Assembly (NCBI GenBank): GCA_944392145.1
Contig: CALXVS010000011.1
Coordinates: forward strand, 1-46,322
From: an uncultured Alphaproteobacteria bacterium
GTDB lineage: Bacteria; Pseudomonadota; Alphaproteobacteria; CAAHEQ01; UBA3637
Direction: 5' to 3'
DNA length: 46,322 bases
The notes below the pieces were generated by a model, which saw nothing but the letters and a program-made list of their open reading frames with translations, ran no database searches and had not been told where the DNA came from. A program made the position numbers and the translations under genes. Shown piece after piece: positions 5,507 to 39,031 of this stretch. Numbering within the stretch: position 1 is the stretch's first letter; every line of letters begins with the position of its first letter.

Positions 5507-7603
5507 ATGCATTTTAAGGGATTTTTCAACAAGGGTGTTTTAGGGAAAACGGTATCAGAGACAGCGGGTGTGTATAACACCCCGTATGCCGGACAGCGGT
5601 ATGTCACAAATAGCGATAAATCGTCTCTGACAGAGACATCCCACGTATGGTCATCCTTGCGTATGCGAGGATCCGGGGCAAATAATACCGCTTCTTTTGT
5701 TGGGGATATCTTCCCCAACAAAAGAGCTTTATCACAGTGCAGATACGATTCGGCTTTAGGTCGTTCTATGATAGAGATGTTGGGGGTGTTGGCCATTATC
5801 GGCGTGTTAAGTATTGCTGCCGTCGCCGGGTATCGTTTCGCCCTGTTAAAGTTCCGCGCCAATGAAGTCACCAACGAACTCAACATGCGCGCTATCAATG
5901 TGTCCGCCCAAATGCTTAACACCGGCACTGTCTATGAAAAAAACGAACTGATTGAAGACGGATTCGGCGATACCCTGACCGTCGGTTTCCCCGTTGAAAC
6001 CGCTATCTCGGACAGAAACACCGATTACTTTGAAATCCTGGTCAGCGATATCCCGGCTGATCTGTGTCGTCAAATCCTGCGCGATTATGAAAACCCTATC
6101 ATGATCTTTGTCAATAACGTGCGCTATAACGCCGATACAACCATCTGTGATGACGAAACACAAAATGCCTTAAACGATATGGGCTTTATTTATAAAAATG
6201 ATCTGGGAACACACGAGGCGTGTTCCGAGAAAGGATATTTTGACGAAGAGGACTTTCAGTGTCACTGTTCGGGCAACACCTATCTGGACATTTATACAAA
6301 CGATTGTTTGTGTCCGGCGGGGCATATCTGGAGCGCCGGGGAAGGCACCTGTATTGAGTCTATTTGTCCAGAGGGAGAGTTTGAGACTTCAAAAAACGGG
6401 TGTGTGCCGTGTTCGGATGAAACCAATTATACGATTGCGACCGATCAGCAAAAAGCCATTTGTTTGGCCTGCGGAAACAGGGAGGCTTATACGTTTAATA
6501 CACAAACATATTGTTATAATTTAAAACCGGCCTGTGTTTCGGGAACAACGTTCCGCCAACTTGGCGGAACATGCATAAGCTGCACAGCCACGGCTCATCG
6601 GGTTTATGTTCCCAATACAACCGATGCCATTAATTCATGCAATGCCTGCCCGAACAGGATGTATGATTCAAGTCAATGTATTATCAAAACATGTTTACCG
6701 GGCTATTTTTTAGCAAGCGATAAGTGTTATGATTGTAATACACCGGATACGGTTTCCATGTCAAATGCAACATATCAAAATTCTTGTTTAGCCTGTGGCA
6801 ACAGAAGTATTATAAATAACACCTGTGTCAAAACAACATGTTCCACCGGTGAATTTATGGGGGCAGACGGGAAATGCTATGCCTGTGATCAGCCCAAAAA
6901 AATTGCCGTTAATGCAGGATCCGGATGCACGGATACGGCGTGTGAACGGGTAGAGGTAACGAGTGACGGTAAAACGTATTGCCAAATTGCCGATTGCCCG
7001 ACCGACGGGACTTATGTCAACGTAGATGGCAGTTGTTATCCGTGTGCCGGCAGCACGCCGTTTCAATCAACAAAAGAGCAGTGTGATCAATGTTTATCTC
7101 CCCAACGTTTATGGTTAGGAACCGAAAATGCCGACGGAACGGCCATAGGGAAATGTATGACAAAATGTAAAATGGGGGTCAGTTACCCTCATGCCAGTGC
7201 AACATTATGCTATGGTTGTGCGGGATCGTATGATGGATCAGGTTATTTAGGTACTTCGGCAACCGCTCGTGAATATTGTGAGGCCTGTGGTAATTATTTG
7301 GATGGCGAATGGTGTGTCAGGCCCAATTCATGTGTACGAGGTTCCGAGTTCAGACGTAAAGTATCCGGTTATTCTTTTTGTGCTACATGTGATTTGGTGG
7401 AAAAAATCAATATCGGAACAACGGCGGTGCATCGTGATATGTGTTCGGCCTGCACAACAAAACCGCGGTTTTGGATCGGGGAATATTGCTATCGGTGCGA
7501 TTCGCCCGAAACACCTGATGTAACCTCAACCGATGAAGAAAAAAGTTGCCGTACCTGTGACGAACGCGAGGTCAAAGACGGGAAGTGTATTCTTATCCAG
7601 TAA
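5507..7603 (+). CDS. Pseudopilin-like prepilin with Cys-rich extracellular repeats
   Basis: A class III/type IV pilin-like signal is present (ALG then RSMIEMLGVLAIIGVLS, about residues 84-102), with the Glu at position 5 after the predicted cleavage site and a 20-residue hydrophobic helix. A globular head of about 130 residues follows, then roughly 400 residues of Cys-rich repeats (CxxC, CxACGN, GxCxxC) of EGF/furin-like spacing. It is probably an exported surface or secretion-system pseudopilin. The start at 5507 has a strong AAAAGGAG site. This gives an unusually long 85-residue leader, coded by DNA full of palindromes. No pilus assembly genes are adjacent. Confidence 0.85.
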   Translation: MHFKGFFNKGVLGKTVSETAGVYNTPYAGQRYVTNSDKSSLTETSHVWSSLRMRGSGANNTASFVGDIFPNKRALSQCRYDSALGRSMIEMLGVLAIIGVLSIAAVAGYRFALLKFRANEVTNELNMRAINVSAQMLNTGTVYEKNELIEDGFGDTLTVGFPVETAISDRNTDYFEILVSDIPADLCRQILRDYENPIMIFVNNVRYNADTTICDDETQNALNDMGFIYKNDLGTHEACSEKGYFDEEDFQCHCSGNTYLDIYTNDCLCPAGHIWSAGEGTCIESICPEGEFETSKNGCVPCSDETNYTIATDQQKAICLACGNREAYTFNTQTYCYNLKPACVSGTTFRQLGGTCISCTATAHRVYVPNTTDAINSCNACPNRMYDSSQCIIKTCLPGYFLASDKCYDCNTPDTVSMSNATYQNSCLACGNRSIINNTCVKTTCSTGEFMGADGKCYACDQPKKIAVNAGSGCTDTACERVEVTSDGKTYCQIADCPTDGTYVNVDGSCYPCAGSTPFQSTKEQCDQCLSPQRLWLGTENADGTAIGKCMTKCKMGVSYPHASATLCYGCAGSYDGSGYLGTSATAREYCEACGNYLDGEWCVRPNSCVRGSEFRRKVSGYSFCATCDLVEKINIGTTAVHRDMCSACTTKPRFWIGEYCYRCDSPETPDVTSTDEEKSCRTCDEREVKDGKCILIQ
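5566..5725. repeat. Cluster of palindromes inside the prepilin leader
   Basis: Three inverted repeats fall in the coding DNA of the leader: GGGTGT/ACACCC (5566-5582), GTCTCTG-A-CAGAGAC (5623-5637), and a perfect 14-bp stem with a 5-base loop (5693-5706 with 5712-5725, centred on GGGGATATCTTCCCC). Their density is unlike the rest of the gene. Confidence 0.7.
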
Positions 7604-17831: not shown

Positions 17832-17860
17832 TTGACAAAAACAAATGAACTTTGTATCAT
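17832..17860 (+). promoter_or_regulatory. Strong sigma-70-like promoter of the 613-aa gene
   Basis: A perfect TTGACA (17832-17837), a 17-base spacer and TATCAT (17855-17860) lie 29 bases before the start codon. Confidence 0.75.
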
Positions 17861-17889
17861 TGAAAGAGTTTTTTAAAAAAGGAAAGACC

Positions 17890-19731
17890 ATGTCGGAACA
17901 ACAGTCAGTGCATCAGCAAATCATTCATGAAATAGAAACCCAATATATGCGTTTAATTCGGGAAAACGACTTTGAAGATCGGGAATTAGATTCGCATGAG
18001 CAATGCTTGGCGGCAGCGGCAGTAGTGCCGGAAGTTTCCTTATATTATATATGCGGTATTTTACCGTTATCGGTAACGCAAGAATTATTGACGTTGGAAC
18101 AAACAATTTGCCGGCGAGAAAATCGTTCAAGTATTCCCATGAAAGAATTGTTGTCTGAATTGGAAGTGGTTGCGCCGCATACAGCAGAACAATACCGGCA
18201 GTGTGTGACCTCCGAAAAGATGTCTTTGGTGCGTCATTTACGGCAGGCCGCGACAGCATATTCTTGTTTTTTCAGTAACGTATCCGGTGAAGAGCAACAG
18301 TTGGATTTGGGAACATACAGAATGCGTCTTCCTTGGGTCAGTATTACGGATGAAAAAACTGATTCACATTTGAAGTTATTAAATATTATTAAAATTCTGA
18401 ATTTTTACAGCTTGCAAAAACAAGAAAGCCCTTTGGCACGTCGTGCATCGGCTATTGCGATGGATTTACTGATGGATGCTTATTCATTATTTGCGACAGA
18501 GTTAAATACATTGGCACTGCGTGAATCAAATTCAGCATCAAGGATGCGTATGCAGGCGTGTGCTGATATGTTCAATACGTGGTTAGATCATACAGAACCG
18601 ATGAATTCGGTGGAACGGCATCGTTGTCAAGTTGATCTTTATAATCGGACACGTCGGTTGATACGTGCTTTTGAACCAAATGCGAAAGCAGTCGCTCAAA
18701 AAGAGGCTTTATTTGATACCTGCATGGATTTGGATGACGCTTATGCAATCAGATTGCGTCGGTATTTGGTTGCACAGCCAATTATAAAACCCGCCCGAAT
18801 AAGTGATCGGTTACCTTTGAATGCAGAACGGATTCTTGAAACGCATCAAGCTTTGGCGCGTGATTATTTCTTTCAGTGCGATACGGAAAATATCCGATTG
18901 ACTGATTCGGAAAAAATTATTGCCTCTTTTGGAGCATTGGACGAAGACAGTTTGCTTTATCTGTGCGGTTTTTTGACTGATCGTGATTATGACCGTATGA
19001 CGGATGCAATTGAAGCCCTTGCAACGGATGATTACCTGAAATCATCAAAAGAGCCAATTGATGTGCGTCGGATTTTTTCTTATTTGCTGAATAAAAAAGA
19101 CTATGCATTGCCGATTCGCAAAAGTTATGTTTCCTTTGTGCGTCAGGTGCAAACCGCCGGTCGTCTGGTGCATTATGTTTGCGTGCGGGATGCTTCAAAA
19201 GATAAATGGTTGGTGTGGGATCGTTTGCCGAATAAACATTTTGTTGATAAATCAGATGAAAAGCTGTTTCATATGATGCCCGAAACGGGACGGCGAATTA
19301 TGTCCCTGCAAGTATTGGCCGCTGCATTGCCGGAACATAAGGAAATACAAAAGCGGTTGAAAATGCTGGCACTTGATTATTTTAAACGGGTTTGGAATGA
19401 TTCAGTGAATGTAACATCTCATCCGCGGGATCCGGAAGTGGTAGAAAGAAGACGGTTGATAACGCATTTGTATGAGGCACATTTACCCCAAGGGAAGATT
19501 TTAACGCCATGTCTGGTAAACAAAGTTTTAACACAAACAGAAAAGCAATTGCATAAACATTTGGAAAAAGCAATCGGTTCGTTAGATCAACTGTGGATCG
19601 GACGGCAGGGGCAAATTTTACGCCAAAGCACTTTAACACCGAAAGAGGCCTATTTGAACGGGATTAACCGGTATTTCCGTTGGTCGGACGAATGGTGGGA
19701 GGCTTATCGCAATGCCATTCGGGAACGGTAA
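17890..19731 (+). CDS. Unknown 613-aa cytoplasmic protein with internal duplication
   Basis: No recognisable domain or signal peptide is seen. The start is ATG 17890 after AAAAAGGAAAG. The two halves look related. Residues about 1-290 include EVSLYYICGILPLSV and LVRHLRQAATAYSC; residues about 315-560 include EDSLLYLCGFLTDRDYD and YVSFVRQVQTAGRLVHYVC. Both then have a helical block ending in LYNRTRRL or LITHLYEAHL. It is rich in helix-forming residues throughout. It is a single-gene unit with its own promoter. It may be a lineage-specific effector or scaffold protein, but the sequence gives no function. Confidence 0.75.
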   Translation: MSEQQSVHQQIIHEIETQYMRLIRENDFEDRELDSHEQCLAAAAVVPEVSLYYICGILPLSVTQELLTLEQTICRRENRSSIPMKELLSELEVVAPHTAEQYRQCVTSEKMSLVRHLRQAATAYSCFFSNVSGEEQQLDLGTYRMRLPWVSITDEKTDSHLKLLNIIKILNFYSLQKQESPLARRASAIAMDLLMDAYSLFATELNTLALRESNSASRMRMQACADMFNTWLDHTEPMNSVERHRCQVDLYNRTRRLIRAFEPNAKAVAQKEALFDTCMDLDDAYAIRLRRYLVAQPIIKPARISDRLPLNAERILETHQALARDYFFQCDTENIRLTDSEKIIASFGALDEDSLLYLCGFLTDRDYDRMTDAIEALATDDYLKSSKEPIDVRRIFSYLLNKKDYALPIRKSYVSFVRQVQTAGRLVHYVCVRDASKDKWLVWDRLPNKHFVDKSDEKLFHMMPETGRRIMSLQVLAAALPEHKEIQKRLKMLALDYFKRVWNDSVNVTSHPRDPEVVERRRLITHLYEAHLPQGKILTPCLVNKVLTQTEKQLHKHLEKAIGSLDQLWIGRQGQILRQSTLTPKEAYLNGINRYFRWSDEWWEAYRNAIRER

Positions 19732-19796: not shown

Positions 19797-19874
19797 GGCG
19801 GATGTAGCTCAGTTGGTTAGAGCGCTGGTTTGTGGTACCAGATGTCGTGAGTTCGAGTCTCATCTTCCGCCCCA
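19797..19874 (+). tRNA. tRNA-His (GTG)
   Basis: This is a cloverleaf with anticodon loop TTGTGGT (anticodon GTG). The His identity element is visible: an extra G at -1 (19797) opposite discriminator C73 (19871). CCA is encoded (19872-19874). The acceptor stem has one T-T mismatch at its sixth pair. Confidence 0.96.
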
Positions 19875-20028: not shown

Positions 20029-21099
20029 ATGGGAAAATACATGTATAAATCTAAAATTTTACTTTGCATTTTTTTTATTATCGGAATGTTTTGAGGATGT
20101 TGGATAAGTTCTTTTTATAAAGAGAAGCATTCTGAAAAGATAGCTGTTTTATATATTGCAACCGGACGATATATAAAATTTTGGGACATTTTTTACCAAA
20201 GTGCAGAAAAAAATTTTTTGCCAGGATATAAAAAACATTATTTTGTTTGGACAGATCATCAGGATAAAATTTTTCCCAAAAATGTAACACGACTATCAGC
20301 AAAATATAAGAATTGGCCGGATGTTTCTTTAAAAAGGTTTGAAATGTTTTTAGAACAAGAAGAGGCATTAAAAAAATATGATTATATTTATTTTTTAAAT
20401 GCAAATTCTTATGTAAGAGCCCCTGTGAAATCCGAGATTTTCCCCTCTGAAGATCAGGGATTAACGGTCGCTTTGCATCCCGGATATTGGGGTAAACCGA
20501 ATGATAGGTTTAGCTACGATAGAAATCCAAAGTCAACAGCCTATATTCCCAAGGGAATGGGTAAATATTATGTGGCTGGTGGTTTTAACGGTGGCCGAAG
20601 TGAAGCTTTTTTGAAAATGAGTCGTATTTTGGCCGAAAATACACGTATTGATAAAAAAAACGGTGTTATGGCTTTATGGCATGACGAATCACATCTTAAT
20701 AAATATATTTTAGATAAAAATTCTTTGATTTTATTGCCTAATTACAGTTATTGGTATGCGGGCAATGTTTTTTTTAAGCTGTTAAAAGGAACGGCTAAAA
20801 TTGAAATAGTGGAAAAAGGGTTACCTGAATATGGTGGCAGAAAATATTTGCGTGGTGTGACAGATGAACCGAATGATGGAAAGATGCCTGAAGGAAGTTT
20901 GAACCTTATCCACCCGAAATGGAAAGATTTTTTGATTCCAAAAAATGGAAAATACTATCGTTTTTCAAGAAATGATTGTGGTGTTATTCAGCGTTCCGGT
21001 GATGAAATTATTGTTATATGGGATACATATAAAACGGAAAATTTGTTGCACTTGAACGAAAAGGCTTTTATTATTACACAGAAAATTAAATTTTTTTAA
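20029..21099 (+). pseudogene. Family 6 glycosyltransferase (GT6) with an in-frame TGA near the start
   Basis: GT6 enzymes transfer Gal or GalNAc in an alpha-1,3 linkage (ABO-type). The signatures are FWDIFYQSAEKNFLPGY, YFVWTD, WPDVSLKRFEMFL, AYIPKGMGKYYVAGGFNGG and WHDESHLNKYI. The metal motif DxD is replaced by NAN (FLNANSYV), which is typical of bacterial GT6. The frame opens at ATG 20029 or 20041 with a hydrophobic anchor (KILLCIFFIIGMF) and meets TGA at 20092-20094, then stays open to 21099. No ATG, GTG or TTG precedes the first nucleotide-binding strand (IAVLYIATGRY) after the stop, so a restart at TTG 20218 would lose it. It is probably a recent nonsense mutation. Confidence 0.8.
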
Positions 21100-21937: not shown

Positions 21938-22041
21938 CAGTTCCCGTGTGTTACCTTATTTGTGGATTTTTAGGGGCTGGAAAAACAACCTATTCTAAAA
22001 AGTTAGACTCTAAACTAAAATTATTTATTACACTAAATTAA
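21934..22041 (+). pseudogene. Truncated P-loop kinase/ATPase (N-terminus only)
   Basis: ATG at 21934 begins MTVPVCYLICGFLGAGKTTY, a complete Walker A motif (GFLGAGKTT) typical of AAA_33-type zeta-toxin-like kinases. The frame ends after 35 residues at TAA 22039-22041. All downstream motifs are absent, so this is a 5' remnant left by a deletion next to the nucleotide operon. Confidence 0.65.
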
Positions 22042-22049
22042 AAAAAAGA

Positions 22050-22078
22050 TTGATTCTTTCTTCAATATAATATATAAT
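22050..22078 (+). promoter_or_regulatory. Promoter of the nucleotide-metabolism operon
   Basis: TTGATT (22050-22055), a 17-base spacer and a perfect TATAAT (22073-22078) lie 25 bases before the first ATG of the operon. Confidence 0.7.
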
Positions 22079-22442: not shown

Positions 22443-23031
22443 GATTAATTTTATTACGTCCAACAAAGGAAAAATAAAATCACTAGAAAATAGTTTGAAA
22501 CTTAATAATATAGACGTGCAGATATGTGCCAAAAACTTAGATATTATGGAACCTCAATTTGATACCGTTCAAGAGGTTTCAAAATATAAGGCATTAAAAG
22601 CTTTTGAGATATTGAAAGAACCTGTTTTAGTAGAAGATGGAGGATTTTCTGTATTTGGATTAAACGGCTTCCCTGGTGTTTATACCAAATATGTTCTGAA
22701 AACATTAGGTGCGGATGGTATTCTAAAATTAATGCATGGGATTGAAAACAGGTCAGCTAAATTCATAAGTGTCGCAACATTTATTAATAAAGACGGTGAT
22801 ATTTTTCAATTTGAACGTGAAGGTGGAGAATTTGAAATATCAAAAGAACAAGTTGATATTCAATCTCCTTTTGCATGGTCTGAGCTCTGGAAAATAATAT
22901 ATTTAAAAGAATACAATAAAAACCTTTGCGAACTCTCAGAACAAGAGGTTTCCGAATATTATGGAAAAGCTGGAGCCAATGGTAGCATTCAAAAATTTGT
23001 TAATTGGTATATAAATGATTATAAAAGATAA
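22435..23031 (+). CDS. HAM1/RdgB-like non-canonical NTP pyrophosphatase
   Basis: The family hydrolyses (d)ITP, XTP or other odd NTPs to monophosphates. Family marks are INFITSNKGKIKSLENSL (nucleotide-binding strand and SNKGK), PVLVEDGGFSVFGL (catalytic acidic pair) and NGFPGVYTKYV. The usual C-terminal SHRxxA motif is replaced by GKAGANGSIQKF, so substrate choice may differ. It has 198 residues. It overlaps both neighbours, which shows tight coupling. In this operon it may clear or produce a modified nucleoside monophosphate. Confidence 0.8.
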   Translation: MNKINFITSNKGKIKSLENSLKLNNIDVQICAKNLDIMEPQFDTVQEVSKYKALKAFEILKEPVLVEDGGFSVFGLNGFPGVYTKYVLKTLGADGILKLMHGIENRSAKFISVATFINKDGDIFQFEREGGEFEISKEQVDIQSPFAWSELWKIIYLKEYNKNLCELSEQEVSEYYGKAGANGSIQKFVNWYINDYKR

Positions 23032-24245
23032 ATTAACTTTCTGTGGCAACTCTTCAATTGACCACATCATAACTTATCAAGGTACAAAGGATGTAATAGG
23101 CGGAAGCGCTGTGAATGCAGCTATTGCAGGAAGTTTATTCGGAAATAAAGAAATATCTATAATCTCAAGCATAGGCTATGATTTTCCCATAGATGTATTA
23201 GATAAGTTAAATATAGATACACAGTATATACAACAATATAAAAACAAATTCGTTCAATATTGATGAGATAAATAATAGGATTTCCTTAATAAACAGTGCT
23301 TATGTTCCTATAATTATACCAGAGCAATTAACTACTAACCATTTGCATATATCCTGCAGAAAAGGCGTTCCTTTCACCGATGCTATGAATAAAATTCATG
23401 CCCAGTCCTACTCTTTAGATGTTATGTGGTCTAGTATAAAGGATTTTTTACCGGAATTATCAGCCTGCCTTAAAAAGGCTGATTTTTTATTTTGTAATGA
23501 TAGTGAATTTATAATTATGCAACGTAATGGCTTAATCAATATCGATTCATTACCTCAAAATTTATCAATATTTATCACAGATAAAACAGGGGTTTTCTAC
23601 CAAAAAGGAAATAACAGAAAATACTTTACGACAATCAAAACAGATGATGTTATTAGTACAGTTGGTGCCGGGGATACATTCCTCGGAAGCTTCTTGTCTT
23701 TGTTTAATGGCAAAAATTTAAATGAAGCTGTTTATCAAGCATTAGCTATAGAAATAATTAATGAATATGGCGCAGAAATTGGTAAAAATGGCTTCCCTAA
23801 ATTTTTACCAGGAATTAATTTAATGCATGGATTACCAGGGCAAACAGAAAAAACTCATGAAATAAATATAGAATTCTTAAATAAAATTTATCAAAATCGC
23901 CTACAAACACATAGATTATTCTACCGCTATATGACACCTGCAGAAGGAATCATTTCCTCTCAAATTAAAGAAGATTTTGATTATTACAATAAATGTAAAA
24001 ATGAAATCATGCAAAATTTTGTTATTCCAATGCAAAAATATGTTTATCCCAAAGGTCGACAATTAAGAGGATTTAGAGAAGTTGTTTTTGAAAATGGAGA
24101 TTCCTTCTTAAGAACTTTAGGAACATGCTCTATAAAAGTTATGATTGAAAATAAAAAACTAACTCCTTATGATACTTATAATATACAAATATTAGATACT
24201 ATTGATTCTAAGTTATTAAAAGGTGAGATTATAAAAGGAAACTAG
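23015..24245 (+). pseudogene. PfkB-family kinase, frameshifted, fused to the C-terminal half of a radical SAM protein
   Basis: The first frame (23015-23263) has the PfkB start: FCGNSSIDHIITY, GGSAVNAAIAGSLFG, SIGYDFP. It closes at 23263, but the next frame continues the same protein from about 23240 (FNIDEINNRISLINSAYVPI) through HISCRKGVPF to ISTVGAGDTFLGSF, the PfkB catalytic signature. A one-base slip near the A-rich run at about 23240 separates them. After about residue 245 the chain changes into the back half of a radical SAM enzyme: INEYGAEIGKNGFPKFLPG, INLMHGLPGQTEKTHEIN, then a TRAM-like tail. The CxxxCxxC half is missing. Confidence 0.7.
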
Positions 24246-34250: not shown

Positions 34251-34578
34251 TTAAATATCCTCAACAAGTTCACAGATTTTTGAATGGTAAACCTTATTCC
34301 CTCGCATCACGACAATTGTATCTCCAACAATAACCATACTTTGCCGATACCATGTTGTTGAGGTAAATGGCATTTTATATTTTTTGTAAGTGGAAAAATC
34401 AGAAGTCGAATAGATTCTTGATTGGTCTATAATATAATACAGTCCGTTATAATAAAGGACATTAAAAGAATAGTGCTCGGCATTAAAACCTTCCGGTTTT
34501 GTTAACTCACTCCAATTTGTTCCGTCTGAACTTCTGATAAACTTATCACTCCAGTTGTAATGGTAAAAATAACCGATC
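34251..34578 (-). pseudogene. 3' remnant of a phage tail fibre-like gene
   Basis: An open minus-strand frame ending at TAA 34253-34251 encodes a beta-rich tail: YHYNWSDKFIRSSDGTNW, HYSFNVLYYNGLYYIID and MVIVGDTIVVMRGNKVYHSK. The alternating strands and W/Y content fit a beta-propeller or fibre protein. The 5' end is lost at the junction near 34,575, where the recombinase gene begins. The recombinase stop is read from this sequence in another frame. Confidence 0.6.
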
Positions 34579-35437
34579 GGGAGGGTGTAAATCTATCTCC
34601 CTTATTAAGCCGTTTTAACTCTTGGACTTGATTCCACAAATCCATGGGGATGATAGCTTCGTGCAAACCGTCAAACAACTCGTTTTTATAGGGGATTTTT
34701 CCGATATATATAGGGTTACGAAGCATATTATTAACGATAGCATGATTAAAGGCTATGTTGACAGGCTCTATTGAAGACGGTAGTTTACGTGGTTTACTAT
34801 GGTACCCCATTTCTTTTGCGTTCCGGCTAACTTGGACTTCAGACCGGCACCGGAGGTACTCTTCAAAGATATATCGAACAACCTTGGCTTCTTCGGGATT
34901 AACCACTAACTTCTTATTTTCTACATCATACCCCAAAGGAACGCTTCCACCGGTCCACATCCCTTTTTTCTTTGTGGCGGCAATTTTATCTCGGATACGC
35001 TCAGCACTGACTTCACGTTCAAATTGGGCAAAGGATAACAAAATATGCAGGGTTAACATACCCATGGAATCACAGGTGTTAAAGTGTTGTGTTACAGAAA
35101 CAAAGGAACAATCGTGTGCATCAAAAATTTTAATCAGTTGTGCAAAGTCTAGCAAGGAACGGGTAAGACGGTCAATTTTATACACGACAATCATGTCCAC
35201 TTTATCATTTTTGACGTCTTCCAGTAATCGCTGTAACGCAGGACGTTTCATGGTACCACCGCTATATCCACCATCATCATAACGGTCAGGAATGAGTGTC
35301 CAACCTAAATGTTTTTGACTTTTAATATAGTTTTCGCCGGCTTCCCGCTGTGCCTCCAACGTGTTAAACTCTTTATCCAACCCTTCCTCTGTTGATTTAC
35401 GGGTATAAACTGCACATCTGATTGTTTTTTGTTCCAT
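34502..35437 (-). pseudogene. Large serine recombinase, C-terminally truncated
   Basis: The N-terminal resolvase domain is complete: VYTRKSTEEGLDKEFNTLEA with the catalytic Ser, YDDGGYSGG, YKIDRLTRSLLDFAQL and LLSFAQFEREV. The recombinase domain continues to TPSRSV at about residue 288. There the homology to the intact copy at 37319-39031 stops and 23 unrelated residues follow, read from the tail fibre remnant. The zinc ribbon and coiled-coil are missing, so integration activity is unlikely. It lies three bases after the DUF2924 gene. Confidence 0.85.
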
Positions 35438-37318: not shown

Positions 37319-39031
37319 ATGGAACCGCAAAAAAAAGTCAGATGTGCAATTTACACTCGTAAATCAACAGATGAAGGTCTTGAAAAAGAATTTAATACTT
37401 TGGAAGCCCAACGTGAAGCCGGAGAAAATTACATTAAGAGTTTTAAGCATCAAGGTTGGGAAGCCTTACCAGACCACTACGATGATGGTGGTTTCAGCGG
37501 TGGCAATCTAAAGAGGCCTGCCTTACAACAACTATTGAAAGATGTTGAAAAAGGTAAAGTTGATATGATTGTTGTTTATAAAATAGACCGTTTAACCCGT
37601 TCTCTTCTCGATTTTGCACAGCTCGTAAAAACGCTTGAAAAGCATAATTGCTCTTTTGTATCTGTTACACAGCACTTTAATACTTGCGATTCCATGGGAA
37701 AGTTAACATTAAATATATTGCTGTCGTTTGCACAATTCGAGCGTGAGCTTGGTGCAGAACGTGTCCGGGATAAAATTGCGGCCAGCCGTAAAAAAGGAAT
37801 GTGGACCGGTGGATCGGTTCCTCTTGGCTACACTCTTAAAAATAAAAAATTGATTATTGAACCGGCTGAGGCAGAGATTATACGTTTTATTTTTGAAGAT
37901 TATGCTCGTACTAGATCAGAATTACTTACAACACAGCACGCCATCGAGCGCGGTTACACACCTAAAGAACGGAAAAATAAAGATGGAACCCTTAAGAATA
38001 AAGAGGTTTTTAATCACTCAATGGTTAATCACATTTTGAACAATCCTCTTTATTTGGGGAAGATGCCATACAAAGGAGAGCTATACGAAGGTCAGCACAA
38101 GGCTATTATTTCACAGGATTTATGGGATAGAGTAAAAAGTCTAAAATCGGATAATTTAGGAAATGCATTTTGTCCGTCAAGATCAGTAAAAAACAGCTTA
38201 TTAAAAGGTCTGTTAGAATGTGAATGTTGTGGCACCATGATTCCAACTAGATGTAAGCGCGGCAACAAGTACTATGAGTATTACACTACTTTAAAATCTG
38301 TAAAAGAAGGTGCAAAAGCACATCCGTGCAAAATTGGAAGTGTTCCTGCTGGGGAACTCGACACTTTTGTTTTAGAAAAGATACAACAAATATTTAAGTC
38401 GCCGAAGATAATGCGAGAGATGGCAAAACAGCTTGAAGAGGCTAACCCCAAGTATTCAGCAAATGATGCTTATAATCTTGCGAATAATATAGGCGAAGTG
38501 TTCCAGTACTTTGAACCGGCAACTGTCCACGATTTTATTTCAGAGGTTGTTGAAAAAGTAGTTTTGCACCAAGAATTTATTGAGATAAAATTACGTCCAT
38601 ATGGGGCTGATATTTTTGAAAATCAGCTTACAGAACCTGATAAATGCTACTGCAAAGAAAGTTTAGTTCTAAAATATCCTGTAAAGTTTGGGAGAAAACG
38701 CGGAAGCATGAAAATTGTTGAACCCACAAATCCAACTAAGGATATGCCGGCACGAGATGAAAAACTTTATAATGCAGTTACACAAGCCTTTTATTTGAAA
38801 AATGAAATGGAAACTAAAAAGATATCATTAGCAGAGTTATCACGACGAGAGCATTGTGATCATACTTATATTGGTCAAGTGGTGCGCCTTACAACTTTAG
38901 CACCGGACATTATAATGGCCATTATTGAGGGTAGACAGCCAAAACTTTTGACCTTAAGAAGATTACTTCGCGAACGCTTCCCATACTCATGGGAAGAGCA
39001 ACGCAAGGAATTAGGATTTAATCCTGCATAA
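37319..39031 (+). CDS. Large serine recombinase (phage integrase)
   Basis: This 570-residue intact recombinase has its catalytic Ser in YTRKSTDEGLEKEFNTLEA, with YDDGGFSGG, YKIDRLTRSLLDFAQ and FERELGAERVRDKIAA. A recombinase domain follows to about residue 290, then a zinc ribbon (CECCGTM, CK at HPCKIG) and a coiled-coil segment near 370-400. The C-terminal 80 residues have a helix-turn-helix look (KISLAELSRREHCDHTYIGQ). It should mediate integration and excision of the right element; its N-terminal 290 residues are closely similar to the truncated left copy. Confidence 0.93.
   Translation: MEPQKKVRCAIYTRKSTDEGLEKEFNTLEAQREAGENYIKSFKHQGWEALPDHYDDGGFSGGNLKRPALQQLLKDVEKGKVDMIVVYKIDRLTRSLLDFAQLVKTLEKHNCSFVSVTQHFNTCDSMGKLTLNILLSFAQFERELGAERVRDKIAASRKKGMWTGGSVPLGYTLKNKKLIIEPAEAEIIRFIFEDYARTRSELLTTQHAIERGYTPKERKNKDGTLKNKEVFNHSMVNHILNNPLYLGKMPYKGELYEGQHKAIISQDLWDRVKSLKSDNLGNAFCPSRSVKNSLLKGLLECECCGTMIPTRCKRGNKYYEYYTTLKSVKEGAKAHPCKIGSVPAGELDTFVLEKIQQIFKSPKIMREMAKQLEEANPKYSANDAYNLANNIGEVFQYFEPATVHDFISEVVEKVVLHQEFIEIKLRPYGADIFENQLTEPDKCYCKESLVLKYPVKFGRKRGSMKIVEPTNPTKDMPARDEKLYNAVTQAFYLKNEMETKKISLAELSRREHCDHTYIGQVVRLTTLAPDIIMAIIEGRQPKLLTLRRLLRERFPYSWEEQRKELGFNPA

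Follow-up and report, generated by a model that had tools for sequence, protein, structure and literature searches.

The GT6 (ABO-like) glycosyltransferase gene at positions 20029-21099 (+ strand) of the window, the whole 46,322-nucleotide stretch analyzed from an uncultured alphaproteobacterium, is probably an anchored GT6 gene that was recently struck by a nonsense mutation, left no useful product, and belongs to a gene family with fast turnover. Its translation runs through MGKYMYKSKILLCIFFIIGMF, is interrupted by an in-frame TGA at 20092-20094, and continues with GCWISSFYKEKHSEKIAVLYIATGRY and beyond. The stop falls within the anchor. Before it lies the N-terminal segment (20029-20091), which on the basis of translation, hydropathy and the layout of relatives consists of a K-rich start and the first part of the anchor. 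After it come 334 open codons (20095-21096), closed by TAA at 21097, which contain the end of the anchor, the GT6 catalytic core and a C-terminal tail, as recognized from Pfam PF03414, the BoGT6a protein of Bacteroides ovatus and an AlphaFold model. A tRNA-His (GTG) was detected directly upstream of the gene, at 19798-19874 (+).

The core of this gene is intact. The stretch after the stop matches the Pfam GT6 family PF03414 at 131.7 bits (cut-off 25), and its best match in the PDB is BoGT6a (E=1e-52), with the human ABO transferases next; the GT6 identity proposed in the first-pass annotation is therefore confirmed. That annotation also described the GT6 signatures as complete, with NAN in place of DXD, and alignment to BoGT6a agrees on both points. 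The NAN motif, corresponding to N95-A-N97 of BoGT6a, is located at 20398-20406 (+), the WHDES motif, whose E is the equivalent of E192, at 20677-20691 (+), and the equivalents of K231 to R243, which contact the diphosphate, at 20815-20853 (+). The roles of E192, K231 and R243 in BoGT6a are named in PMC3961637. All these residues are kept in the window gene, as in the bacterial metal-independent GT6 enzymes of the NXN clade. The AlphaFold model has the GT-A fold of the GT6 type, with core pLDDT mostly above 90, and its best Foldseek match is again BoGT6a (E=2e-28, TM 0.91 on target).

Comparison with known GT6 enzymes may provide some clues regarding what the intact protein did. BoGT6a, a metal-independent histo-blood-group A-type synthase (PDB 4AYJ, 4CJ8), is 44% identical to the window gene over 234 aligned residues. 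However, BoGT6a is intact and anchorless and starts directly before the first strand, whereas the window gene has a stop-cut anchor and a C-terminal tail. This tail of about 79 residues (20860-21096, +) is common to three relatives (L012, L014 and L015) and, past a stop, to a fourth (L011); it has no match in Pfam, and the last 60-80 residues of the window protein are modeled with low AlphaFold confidence. The vertebrate GT6 enzymes (ABO transferases and alpha-1,3-galactosyltransferase) have the GT-A fold and motifs in common with the window gene, but they are metal-dependent and carry DXD instead of NAN. By analogy with BoGT6a, the enzyme would transfer GalNAc or Gal in alpha-1,3 linkage onto a (fucosyl)galactose end, and its product may be a host-like epitope.

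Two further claims of the first-pass annotation, that the TGA cuts the anchor from the enzyme and that no ordinary start precedes the first strand after the stop, also hold. The hydrophobic run crosses the TGA in a single frame, with a 17-residue mean hydropathy of 2.57 when the stop is scored as 0. Both candidate starts, ATG 20029 and ATG 20041 (+), lie before the TGA. A scan of the in-frame codons from the TGA onward finds no ATG, GTG or TTG until the TTG at 20218-20220 (+). This codon comes after the first predicted strand (residues 15-21 of the AlphaFold model), and its use would cost this strand. The open frame after the stop is not due to chance, since base shuffles of this stretch never left more than 85 codons open in 2000 trials. 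Its 41 start-free codons rank it in approximately the top 2-3% of the 130 long frames in 240 kb of the genome: only two of these frames begin with a longer start-free stretch, and one with a stretch of equal length. One of the two is the PfkB fragment neighboring the GT6 gene in the same window. The uninterrupted frame with a usable start expected of a functional gene is not found here.

GT6 genes are present in 18 of the 43 genomes of this bacterial family. An N-terminal type-II anchor or signal peptide precedes the core in 18 of 23 GT6 proteins from gut Alphaproteobacteria, whereas it is absent from all 33 proteins of other or unnamed bacteria; these calls rest on a simple hydropathy test, which 17 of the 18 passed by threshold, while L020 was counted by eye and L017 was judged separately from its sequence. 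In the phylogenetic tree, the window gene, whose DNA encodes an anchor cut by the TGA, joins anchored proteins at two levels. First, it belongs to a group of seven rows (support 95/93), in which all the other six have an intact anchor. This suggests that the ancestral state was an open anchor frame, and that the TGA is either derived or an error. Second, a larger group of 21 rows (97/95) comprises the 18 anchored rows, the window gene, a paralog from its own genome, and L054, which has no anchor yet is placed inside the anchored lineage. The anchored GT6 proteins of gut Alphaproteobacteria (L009, L010, L011, L013, L015 and others) are the nearest kin of the window gene, with the same anchor position and similar length, but their anchor frames are open. 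The first-pass annotation had considered that relatives might all start downstream of the stop; on the contrary, the anchor is kept in its nearest relatives, whose starts lie upstream. No same-species copy of the gene was found in the genome and viral contig collections searched, and a search for the orthologous site by means of the upstream gene (17845-19731) gave only weak partial matches in relatives.

The charges around the anchors sum to a net +38 before the helix and -6 after it (17 sequences, including the window gene with its stop taken as neutral). By this crude charge rule, a topology with the N-terminus inside is favored, and the catalytic domain would be outside the cytoplasm. The intact bacterial relatives resemble vertebrate GT6 enzymes in their succession of short N-terminus, membrane helix and catalytic domain, although the vertebrate domain resides in the Golgi lumen and the bacterial one on the predicted extracytoplasmic side.

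In its intact form, the window gene would have encoded a protein with a short N-terminus in the cytoplasm, a single membrane helix and a GT6 catalytic domain that needs no metal. With a derived TGA in the anchor, translation would end after 17-21 residues, and the protein would essentially not be made, because there is no efficient start upstream of the catalytic core. Leaky reading of the UGA, or a rare AUA start at 20104 or 20140, could still yield trace amounts of enzyme. The loss is probably recent, since the frame shows no other decay. The same observation also counts against a pseudogene: no second inactivating change is seen in 334 codons, so that decay is not independently visible.

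Decay is visible in other genes. The second GT6 copy of the same genome (L002, contig C12), a member of the same lineage in the tree, is split over three frames and also shifts at its C-terminus. Its frame changes lie near position 1320, in a G8 tract around 1410 and in a C6 tract around 2163. The G8 tract (1408-1415) is of a type seen in phase-variable genes; however, simple on/off switching of this copy by the tract is unlikely, given the two further frame changes. Downstream in the window, a PfkB-type kinase gene (23030-24242, +) contains a frame change and stops, and its C-terminal part is joined to unrelated sequence. In other genomes, a GT6 stretch on G042:C16 has four stops, and the GT6 gene of G020 (L011) has an in-frame TGA at 6820-6822, after which about 55 further codons are homologous to the window gene's C-terminal tail. 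GT6 genes are lost often in this family, and such frequent disruption would be in keeping with host-like surface sugars being lost or varied. Two further observations were made in the window: a P-loop fragment at 21940-22070 (GFLGAGKTTYSKKL) closed by stops, another sign of decay, and a 311-aa serine recombinase at 34502-35437, apparently C-terminally truncated relative to the 570-aa recombinase at 37319-39031.

The alternative that survives best, though it is unlikely, is that the organism itself has an intact gene and makes an anchored GT6. The TGA would then be either a mistake of base calling or assembly, or a variant of a minor strain, in a genome assembled from a metagenome. Only one base need have changed in a frame that is otherwise perfect, which is consistent with this alternative, and false internal stops have been documented in some assemblies (PMC11017572). 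Moreover, the genome resembles a binned draft: it is in 49 contigs, and a PBP1A-prfB-PhoU-PiT block present in its relatives is missing. However, the assembly does not look error-ridden: sampled stretches have a coding density of 0.73-0.90, and late starts are seen in few of the long frames. In addition, the second GT6 copy and a neighboring gene are independently broken.

TGA serves as a regular stop codon in this genome. It closes 43 of the 191 predicted genes (22%) in the 240 kb sampled, and reading on past it gives a median of 7 codons, with only one extension over 80, where the downstream gene is in frame by chance. The anticodon of tRNA-Trp is CCA. Among the 12 matches to a tRNA-Sec model, the 8 that were examined are all other tRNAs (Ser, Cys, Leu, Gly, Lys and others). 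Recoding of TGA as Trp was rejected on the stop usage and read-on lengths, selenocysteine was rejected on the eight tRNA-Sec matches examined, and the gene does not behave as one in which UGA is recoded for either residue. A frameshift was likewise rejected as the cause of the interruption: the other frames contain no convincing anchor, and the T-run preceding the stop is in the same frame. Of the two outcomes that the first-pass annotation had offered, loss is favored, and programmed read-through finds no support in the use of TGA, the tRNA-Trp anticodon or the tRNA-Sec matches examined.

The release factor gene prfB (RF2) was not found in this genome, nor in two others (G003 and G004). In relatives, prfB is flanked by PBP1A and by a PhoU/PiT pair, and the three genomes in which prfB was not found are also missing PBP1A and PiT; in G002 and G008, a PiT match and a third transpeptidase match lie beside prfB. 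Since prfB is gone together with its neighbors, we take the gap to reflect a contig left out of the bin or the loss of a block, and reassignment of UGA was rejected as its explanation.

Useful low-level read-through, in which a near-cognate tRNA-Trp would read the stop in its UGA-G context and produce a little anchored enzyme, is very improbable. UGA is generally the leakiest stop, there is only one of them here, in L011, too, a homologous coding tail comes after a UGA, and the missing RF2 would point in the same direction. On the other hand, there is no sign of extended frames among the many sampled genes ending in UGA, the loss of prfB with its neighbors points to a missing contig, and the relatives have no conserved stop at this place. 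Hardly more credible, and if anything less so, is a re-start past the TGA at the non-standard ATA 20104 or 20140, by which the enzyme would have shed its anchor and become soluble and cytoplasmic like BoGT6a: BoGT6a and five alphaproteobacterial relatives do start without an anchor directly before the first strand, and the anchorless L054 sits inside the anchored lineage, but ATA is a very poor start codon and the region has no ATG, GTG or TTG. Neither read-through nor a non-standard re-start has positive evidence specific to the window gene.

With a recent nonsense mutation as the preferred reading, finding a disrupted GT6 copy in a single gut bacterium is ordinary by itself. More noteworthy is its background, a bacterial lineage of ABO-type transferases that carry an anchor or signal peptide at the N-terminus, a feature absent from the characterized bacterial member BoGT6a. 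According to one review (PMC4202792), bacterial O-antigen transferases, with the exception of initiating enzymes, are without transmembrane domains. We tentatively suggest, as a possibility with the odds against it, that the intact relatives represent a membrane-anchored or exported GT6 lineage (type II, with the core outside the cytoplasm), some of them fused to an H-antigen-type GT11 or to a second GT6. Such a lineage would build glycans resembling blood-group structures in an unusual compartment, and mutations would have inactivated its members repeatedly, as in the window gene. If the catalytic domain is truly outside the cytoplasm, the source of the nucleotide-sugar donor becomes a testable question.

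Fused and tandem GT6 proteins are also found. L008/L019 (567 aa), L114 and L158 each combine an N-terminally anchored GT11 (alpha-1,2-fucosyltransferase type) with GT6 in one reading frame. L158 (527 aa) is encoded on contig C18 of the same genome as the window gene, and in it a divergent GT6-like domain (hhalign probability 93.7%) comes after the GT11. L117 and L118, from G043 and G045, are about 640 aa long and have two GT6 units in tandem, and L118 has a hydrophobic segment at its N-terminus.
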